Source: Aggregatibacter sp. 2125159857
GTDB taxonomy: Bacteria; Pseudomonadota; Gammaproteobacteria; Enterobacterales; Pasteurellaceae
Reading direction: 5' to 3'
Length of the DNA stretch: 64,000 bases
Assembly (NCBI RefSeq): GCF_017798005.1
Contig: NZ_CP072548.1
Coordinates: 620,001-684,000, forward strand
The notes under the pieces are model-generated. The model had not been told where the DNA came from and ran no database searches. It was given only the letters and a program-made list of their open reading frames with translations. Below, in pieces: positions 11,953-14,099 of this stretch. The position numbers were made by a program, and so were the translations under genes. Position 1 is the stretch's first letter. Every line of letters begins with the position of its first letter.

Positions 11953-13314
11953 ATGTCAGTAAAAACTCTTGAAAATCAGACCGCACTTTTACAGCAACAA
12001 GAACAACAATTACGCGATGCGGTCAGTCTTGCCCTTGAAATCGCCCAAAAAGCCGGTGCGGCGGCTGAAGTGGGGGTGACGAAATCCGGAGGGTTATCGG
12101 TTTCTACCCGTTTAAAAGACATTGAAAACGTTGAATTTAATAATGATGGCGCATTAGGCATTTCAGTTTATTTGGGCCAACAAAAAGGCAATGCCTCCAC
12201 TTCCGATTTAAGCCCTGAAGCCATTAAAAATACCGTAGAAGCCGCATTAGCGATTGCGAAATATACCTCACCCGATGATTGTGCCGGTTTAGCCGACAAA
12301 GCATTAATGGCGTTTGATGCACCGGATCTAGATTTGTATTACGCGGCGGATATTGATGTGGATCGTGCTGCGCAGTTGGCATTAGAAACAGAAAATGCGG
12401 CGCTAGCATTTGACAAACGCATTGTTAACAGCGAAGGCGCGTCTTTCAATGCACATACCGGCGTGCGAGTGTATGGCAATAGCCATGGTATGTTGCAAAG
12501 CTATTTGTCTAGCCGCTATTCGTTGTCTTGCTCAGTTATCGCTGCACATGATGATCAATTGGAACGGGATTATGAATACACGGTTTCTCGAGATATGAAT
12601 GCCTTGGAAAAGGCACAATGGGTGGGTGAAAATGCCGCACGAAAAACCCTTGCCCGTTTACAACCGCAAAAAATCGCCACGCAGCAAGCGCCGGTAATTT
12701 TCCTAAATGATGTGGCGACCGGCTTAATCAGCCATTTAGCTGCGGCTATTAGTGGTGGCAGTTTATATCGTAAAGCCAGTTTCTTGCTAGATCATCTTGG
12801 CAAGCAAGTTTTGCCGGATTGGTTTCATATTAGTGAAAAACCGCATTTAATTGGCCGCCTTGCCTCAACGCCATTTGATAGCGAAGGCGTTAGAACACAG
12901 GATTTGGAGATTATTCGTCAAGGGATTTTGCAAACCTATTTGCTCACCAGTTATAGCGGTCGTAAGTTGGGTATGCAAAGCACGGGACACGCCGGTGGCA
13001 TTCACAACTGGTTGGTCCAGCCCAATTCATCTGGAAAACTGACCGCACTTTTACGTGAAATGGGACACGGGTTATTGGTAACAGAAGTGATGGGGCAAGG
13101 GGTAAATTTGGTTACCGGTGACTACTCACGTGGCGCCGCCGGATTCTGGGTGGAAAACGGTGAAATTCAATATCCGGTGGCTGAAATCACCATTGCTGGC
13201 AGATTGCAGGATATGTTACGTAATATTGTGGCCGTTGGGGATGATATTGAACATCGTTCAAATATCCAGACCGGTTCGATCCTGTTGGAAAATCTGAAAA
13301 TTTCCGGGAATTAG
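11953..13314 (+). CDS. pmbA: Metalloprotease subunit PmbA/TldE
   Basis: PmbA (TldE) forms a heterodimer with the catalytic TldD and helps mature peptide antibiotics and degrade CcdA. It is 453 residues, equal to E. coli PmbA (450). The C-terminal region [20 protein letters not shown] (here [19 protein letters not shown]) and [19 protein letters not shown] segment are diagnostic. TldE lacks the HExxxH site of TldD, and none is seen here. Two uptake sequences fall inside the gene. Confidence 0.93.
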
Positions 13315-13328
13315 ATCCTATTTTATTA

Positions 13329-13373
13329 AATGATAATAATTCTTATTGACAAGAATGAGATCTCTGATACAAT
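13329..13373 (+). promoter_or_regulatory. Fur box overlapping a strong promoter
   Basis: TTGACA (13346-13351) and TACAAT (13368-13373) are 16 bases apart. The 19 bases at 13329-13347 match 13 of 19 positions of the consensus GATAATGATAATCATTATC and overlap the -35 box, the classic geometry for Fur repression. No open frame follows; a terminator lies about 110 bases downstream, so the promoter most likely drives a small RNA. Confidence 0.65.
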
Positions 13374-13379
13374 GCATTC

Positions 13380-13512
13380 CATCTGTTAAGTATTGCAGTT
13401 AAGGTGATTGGTTTCATTTTAAAGTTTGCATCATGCTCCATAACAGGTAGAGTAAAAAGTAAATTCGTTAGGGTATTCAAAAGACTGAAGTTTAGACTTC
13501 AGTCTTTTTTTT
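13380..13512 (+). ncRNA. Putative Fur-regulated small RNA
   Basis: A transcript of about 133 nt would run from near 13380 to the T tract at 13505-13512. It ends in a perfect 10-bp hairpin (AAGACTGAAG 13481-13490 with CTTCAGTCTT 13497-13506, six-base loop) followed by eight Ts, a good Hfq-type 3' end. The internal part has no start codon with a credible ribosome site and frame. Fur-regulated small RNAs are known in Pasteurellaceae (HrrF in H. influenzae; several in A. actinomycetemcomitans). Whether this is an orthologue cannot be decided from sequence alone. By analogy with RyhB it would repress iron-using proteins during starvation; that role is inference. Confidence 0.65.
13481..13512 (+). 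terminator. Intrinsic terminator of the putative small RNA
   Basis: A perfect 10-bp stem with a six-base loop is followed by eight Ts. It lies about 45 bases before hpt, so hpt must have its own promoter. Confidence 0.9.
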
Positions 13513-13556
13513 GCTAAAATACCTACACATTATTCCCATTTAAAGGCAGTTGTTCT

Positions 13557-14099
13557 ATGAAAAAACACCATGTTGATATTCTGATTTCCGAACAGGATGT
13601 GCGCAGTCGCATTGCGGAATTAGGCCAAGAAATTACCAATTTTTATCAACATAAAAATATCTATACGCCATTGGTTGTTGTCGGCTTGTTACGTGGTTCT
13701 TTCATGTTTATGGCTGATTTGGTGCGCGAAATTCACTTGCCTGTGGAAATCGATTTTATGACCACATCCAGTTACGGTAATGCCATGAATTCCAATCATG
13801 ATGTGCGTATCAGCAAGGATCTTGATGGAGACATTAAAGGTAAACATGTGCTGATCGTGGAAGATATTATCGATACCGGCTACACCTTACAAAAAGTGCG
13901 CGATATTTTAAATCTACGCGAGCCGAGTTCGTTGACCATTTGCACGTTATTGGATAAACCTTCACGCCGTGAAGTGGATGTGCCGGTTGATTGGGTGGGC
14001 TTCACCATTCCTGATGAGTTTGTTGTCGGTTATGGTATTGATTACGCACAACGCCACCGTAATTTGGGTTACATTGGCAAAGTGATTTTGGACGAATAG
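13557..14099 (+). CDS. hpt: Hypoxanthine phosphoribosyltransferase
   Basis: Hpt salvages hypoxanthine (and guanine) by transferring ribose-5-phosphate from PRPP to make IMP or GMP. The 180-residue protein has the PRPP-binding loop [14 protein letters not shown] at about residues 99-112 and the flexible-loop SSYGN segment. It stands alone, between the putative small RNA and the convergent deoC. Confidence 0.94.

Follow-up and report, generated by a model that had tools for sequence, protein, structure and literature searches.

What does Aggregatibacter sp. 2125159857 encode in the stretch between pmbA and hpt? RyhB of Escherichia coli, NrrF of Neisseria and PrrF of Pseudomonas are small RNAs that are repressed by Fur, end in intrinsic terminators and are produced when iron is short. 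An earlier reading made from the sequence alone (here, the sequence-only reading) had proposed an RNA of this type for the interval: a Fur box overlapping a strong promoter, a terminator about 110 bases later, and no coding sequence between. It had mentioned HrrF as an unverified possible homologue. We followed up this proposal in a window of 64,000 nt, by which we mean the whole stretch of DNA that was analyzed. The two flanking genes had been named correctly. Both exceed curated cut-offs, and the downstream one encodes hypoxanthine phosphoribosyltransferase:

11953..13314, plus strand: pmbA, upstream neighbor (open reading frame; NCBIfam PmbA equivalog, 725.7 bits, cut-off 438)
13557..14099, plus strand: hpt, downstream neighbor (open reading frame; TIGR01203, 240.6 bits, cut-off 150)

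When the window was scanned against all Rfam families, HrrF (RF02728) was the sole match at gathering score. The covariance match lies at 13379-13510 on the plus strand, scores 94.4 bits (gathering score 77), covers the model from position 1 to position 116 of 116, and is the only one in the genome. Membership in the HrrF family is established by this search, a check that the sequence-only reading had suggested, and its central proposal of a Fur-controlled small RNA between pmbA and hpt is supported. Relative to the Rfam model, the upper 5' hairpin of the window HrrF is extended by 16 inserted bases. The Rfam listing at E<=10 for 13200-13700 also gives HrrF a second, weak match on the opposite strand (minus, 13479-13599, 27.6 bits), which we take to be the palindromic terminator matched in reverse. 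Because the RF02728 match exceeds the gathering score over the whole model and is single in the genome, and because the neighbors, the start and the Fur-box spacing agree with the published gene, we hold with high confidence that the interval is the hrrF gene, presumably Fur-controlled and a member of a known family rather than a new one. The HrrF reading is also supported by the genome's having one FUR-family match together with modA, modE, modB, asnA, asnC, and nrdB. The parts of the locus are as follows:

13326..13350, no strand assigned: Fur box cluster (best 7-1-7 site 13331-13345, 12/14; kept upstream of the core in relatives)
13346..13373, plus strand: hrrF promoter (-35 box TTGACA 13346-13351, 16-nt spacer, -10 box TACAAT 13368-13373; 11/12 matches)
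13379..13512, plus strand: hrrF small RNA gene, about 134 nt (RF02728 match; predicted start)
13381..13448, plus strand: 5' hairpin of HrrF (from the fold; basal stem covaries among long forms)
13447..13474, plus strand: conserved HrrF core, presumed mRNA-pairing region (from conservation in relatives and the predicted fold)
13479..13512, plus strand: intrinsic terminator of hrrF (13 pairs at 13479-13508 with a loop of 4; eight T at 13505-13512)

The published gene is that of nontypeable Haemophilus influenzae 86-028NP, where pmbA and hpt flank HrrF and the RNA starts 63-65 nt past the pmbA stop (PMC4144887). In the window, the pmbA stop ends at 13314 and the HrrF model starts 65 nt on, at 13379; the published spacing, transferred to the window, gives 13377-13379. 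Three Fur boxes are predicted within 41 bp in H. influenzae, the first of them 11 bp past the pmbA stop (PMC4144887), and the Fur-like cluster of the window begins 12 nt past the stop. The H. influenzae gene, then, has the same sequence family, locus, start and Fur-box spacing, core and terminator as the window copy. The two differ in length, about 134 nt in the window versus about 97 nt in H. influenzae, and at one base of the core; forms of about 126 nt are described outside Haemophilus (PMC4144887). Closer to the host, an HrrF homologue of Aggregatibacter actinomycetemcomitans is reported to be induced by iron restriction, the two iron-induced small RNAs of that species, this homologue included, are placed in its direct Fur regulon, and asparagine biosynthesis is a predicted target of the homologue (PMC5156373). 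The window copy is an HrrF orthologue, an ordinary family member in its usual chromosomal place, of the kind that an Rfam scan annotates.

The likeness to RyhB proved to be one of layout. What HrrF shares with RyhB of E. coli, NrrF of Neisseria and PrrF of Pseudomonas is repression by Fur, an intrinsic terminator and synthesis in iron shortage (partly from PMC4144887); the account of HrrF in that paper reports no sequence similarity to any of the three, and an RNA stability that is Hfq-independent in H. influenzae. Membership in the RyhB family itself was rejected. None of these three RNAs gives an Rfam match at gathering score in the window, or appears among the matches at E<=10 for 13200-13700. 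The JA01-JA04 RNAs of A. actinomycetemcomitans (RF02729-RF02732) are likewise Fur-regulated, in a related host, and entered Rfam along with HrrF (PMC5753348). Membership in these families was rejected as well: none of their models reaches the gathering score in the window. JA02 (RF02730) scores 21 bits against 49, on the other strand, and is absent from the genome at E<=0.001 in a search run without a positive control.

The signals around the gene were then weighed individually. The Fur box had been given as 13/19 to consensus. It is present, and a match of this grade is by itself weak evidence: the consensus GATAATGATAATCATTATC is matched at 13/19 by three plus-strand sites (13326, 13329, and 13332) and at 14/19 by 13332-13350 on the minus strand, at least 13/19 is reached on one strand at 24 further positions in the 64 kb, and 13/19 was attained by 9.3% of 5,000 Markov sequences modelled on the 242-nt intergenic region. 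By the stricter 7-1-7 pattern, no site in the window scores higher than 13331-13345 (12/14), a value reached by 0.8% of the 5,000 sequences; this site sits directly upstream of the -35 box. The overlap of the Fur box with a strong promoter held up, with the cluster reaching 13350, inside the -35 hexamer, and a TG precedes the -10 hexamer. The terminator and its eight Ts were rightly described, with a stem that had been understated as a perfect 10 bp; 100 nt separate the expected start near 13379 from the stem. Short open reading frames of 37 aa (plus strand) and 45 aa (minus strand) are present in the intergenic stretch. Both appear mechanical, since the length from expected start to core varies by 1-2 nt within the genus, and the absence of a coding sequence stands. 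A weak promoter-like site for hpt (9/12, 13491-13520) overlaps the hrrF terminator, and given this site hpt may start inside the end of hrrF.

Could the arrangement be a coincidence, an AT-rich Fur-like stretch beside a promoter-like site and a terminator, with no gene? Simple counts would allow it. The 1.1 kb scanned holds five promoter-like sites, where shuffles average 3.2 (sd 1.9), and one terminator-like site, where they average 1.0; neither count is above chance, and the 13/19 score lies within chance as well. The weight rests instead on the strength, order and conservation of promoter and terminator, and coincidence is contradicted by the Rfam match and by the conservation of the whole arrangement, so that we give it almost no credence. 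A cis-acting element of a neighbor, either the 3' tail of pmbA, terminator included, or an hpt 5' leader through which Fur acts on hpt, would fit the co-directional placement of hrrF between the two genes and the overlap of the hpt promoter-like site with the terminator. This explanation was rejected as very improbable: the element has a strong promoter and a terminator of its own, H. influenzae makes a discrete RNA of about 97 nt with its own start, as described from northern blot and primer extension (PMC4144887), and pmbA and the core are kept without a detected hpt in 13 of 99 core-bearing loci. Of these 99 loci, pmbA lies upstream in 98 and hpt downstream in 85, on the same strand (some genomes being counted twice, as named and unnamed).

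The predicted fold of the 134-nt hrrF strand has an energy of -37.2 kcal/mol (z -5.25), none of 200 shuffles being equally stable, and the terminator adds to this stability. The core is unpaired at 22 of 28 positions in the centroid fold and at 14 of 28 in the minimum-energy fold, and matches the common core at 27 of 28 bases; in the HrrF paper, the near-invariant core is given as nucleotides 29-64 (PMC4144887). Among 22 long forms, the basal stem AUCUGU/ACAGGU of the 5' hairpin covaries: all 131 countable cells are paired (100%) and nine carry a two-sided change, values reached by none of 500 shuffles for either measure and not approached by slid registers of the stem. Eight of these nine cells reflect one C-G to U-A change, which was perhaps inherited, and the number of basal-stem pairs with a two-sided change (two) is not above shuffles (190/500). 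The alignment takes in 22 of the 26 distinct long forms, the other four being three of genus g3 and one of g9, and RNAalifold on this MAFFT alignment gave a poor consensus (9 pairs, -2.18 kcal/mol); the basal stem was taken from Rfam and was named and counted after that consensus.

The conservation of HrrF extends through much of the Pasteurellaceae, with a 3' core that hardly varies. RF02728 matched at E<=0.001 in 97 of 140 family genomes, 62 of which exceed the cut-off, and in none of the 14 control genomes in the same search; Bacillus subtilis, a control, was matched below the cut-off in a laxer single-genome search. The counts that follow rest on a single locus from each of 91 matching genomes (all of the 97 except G001, G002, G003, G006, G007, and G134); two of these matches, in G082 and G104, appear to be false. 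The core GTAGAGTAGAAAGTAAATTCGTTAGGGT scores at least 48/56 in 75 genomes. A Fur-box match of at least 11/14 occurs within 220 nt upstream in 82, a slightly generous figure because the best site in that span was taken (in G109 the site taken precedes the core by about 199 nt and falls within or close to pmbA), and 70 genomes have both this match and a core of at least 48/56. In 88, TTGAC precedes the core by 54-127 nt. Twenty-nine of the genomes examined fall below the Rfam cut-off, and 21 of them have a core of at least 34/56 and a Fur-box match of at least 11/14. The core, the Fur box and the locus therefore persist in genomes that score under the cut-off.

The 17 named loci taken as Pasteurellaceae (L052-L066, L074, L107) include 6 that pass the HrrF gathering score and 11 with the core. 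It is absent from the other six: Histophilus somni, Rodentibacter caecimuris, a Pasteurellaceae assembly (L059), Mannheimia haemolytica, Ursidibacter maritimus, and Nicoletella semolina. In the M. haemolytica locus (L062, 3820-3865), the aligned pmbA end and hpt start are about 45 nt apart and the core is absent, so by sequence this would be a lineage without HrrF at the pmbA-hpt locus. Three g2 genomes (G004, G008, G009; e.g., loci L051, L260, and L261) have the core shortened to TTAGGGTAAAAGTAAATTCGTTAGG and keep the Fur box and TTGACA; TTAGGGTAA recurs in the 5' hairpin of these short-core genomes.

The window copy shows two small differences. At one position its core has A where all eight other genomes of the genus have G, and its apical loop is without the GGUAG found in six of those eight. 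These differences favor an HrrF with an altered target set, which we consider unlikely: the A also occurs in four other genomes (G124, G035, G036, G037) with Fur boxes of 12-13/14, and the promoter, Fur box, stem and terminator of the window copy are intact. In its fuller form, the idea is that HrrF may carry two pairing sites, of which the window copy lost the second and changed one base of the first, retuning its targets; we put little faith in this version too. The comparison of the 5' part with the core by local alignment (500 dinucleotide shuffles) gave a median p of 0.83 in the genus of the window (n=9; the window itself, 0.41) and of 0.03 in genus g35 (n=6), the latter a nominal value, uncorrected for the 16 genera compared. 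An echo of the core, UAGAGUAG, lies in the apical loop of the long-form 5' hairpin in five of six g35 genomes (L042, L043, L236, L237, L238), and GUAGAG or GGUAG occurs in the apical loop of L041, L233, and L234 (g32), L035 and L231 (g6), L040 (g30), and L028, L023, L228, and L044 (g1). We treat the apical-loop echo as a lead about the HrrF family and not as a finding in the window.

With the element read as an ordinary hrrF gene, a working model can be drawn from its relatives, in which the iron and Fur response, Fur binding and the affected genes were established by others. H. influenzae HrrF is reported to be induced by chelation and by loss of Fur, and Fur was found to bind in a pull-down (PMC4144887). 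By analogy, the window copy would be repressed when iron is plentiful by Fe(II)-Fur bound at 13326-13350, which adjoins the -35 box and in part covers it; such repression by occlusion is suggested by the anatomy of the locus and the published binding. When iron is short, Fur would leave, and RNA polymerase would start near 13379 and stop at the terminator. The product would be about 134 nt long and consist of a 5' hairpin, the conserved core, for the most part open, and the hairpin of the terminator. Because no other part is as conserved and most of it is open, the core is the likely site of pairing, and would most likely pair with mRNAs to alter their stability or translation.

The expected outcome would be that of H. 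influenzae, in which HrrF is reported to lower modABC and to raise asnA, asnC, and nrdB, with the paper's own predicted pairing site lying inside modB (PMC4144887). The window copy would thus lower molybdate uptake and raise the other three genes. The guess of molybdoenzyme mRNAs in the sequence-only reading came near the published modABC effect (PMC4144887). Duplex energies gave no signal: around the starts of modA, asnC, and nrdB (-70 to +50), the HrrF core gave mean z values of -0.24, 0.14, and -0.18, no better than shuffles in a test that ignored accessibility. Each genome's own core was used, with 60 first-order Markov shuffles per pair, in 24 genomes for modA (of 28 loci, four genomes without an HrrF sequence being dropped), 24 for asnC (of 29), and 22 for nrdB (of 27). 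A target at sodB, which the same reading had named, fails as stated. The one superoxide dismutase found in the genome (L142, 1177-1848) fits the manganese model, with 367.7 bits against a cut-off of 363, and not the iron model, with 169.2 against 348; no iron-type enzyme was found there. Iron sparing through sodB is not expected here, because the only superoxide dismutase found is of the manganese type.

A known iron-starvation regulator is thus placed in this genome, and with start, Fur site and end all predicted it can be annotated.
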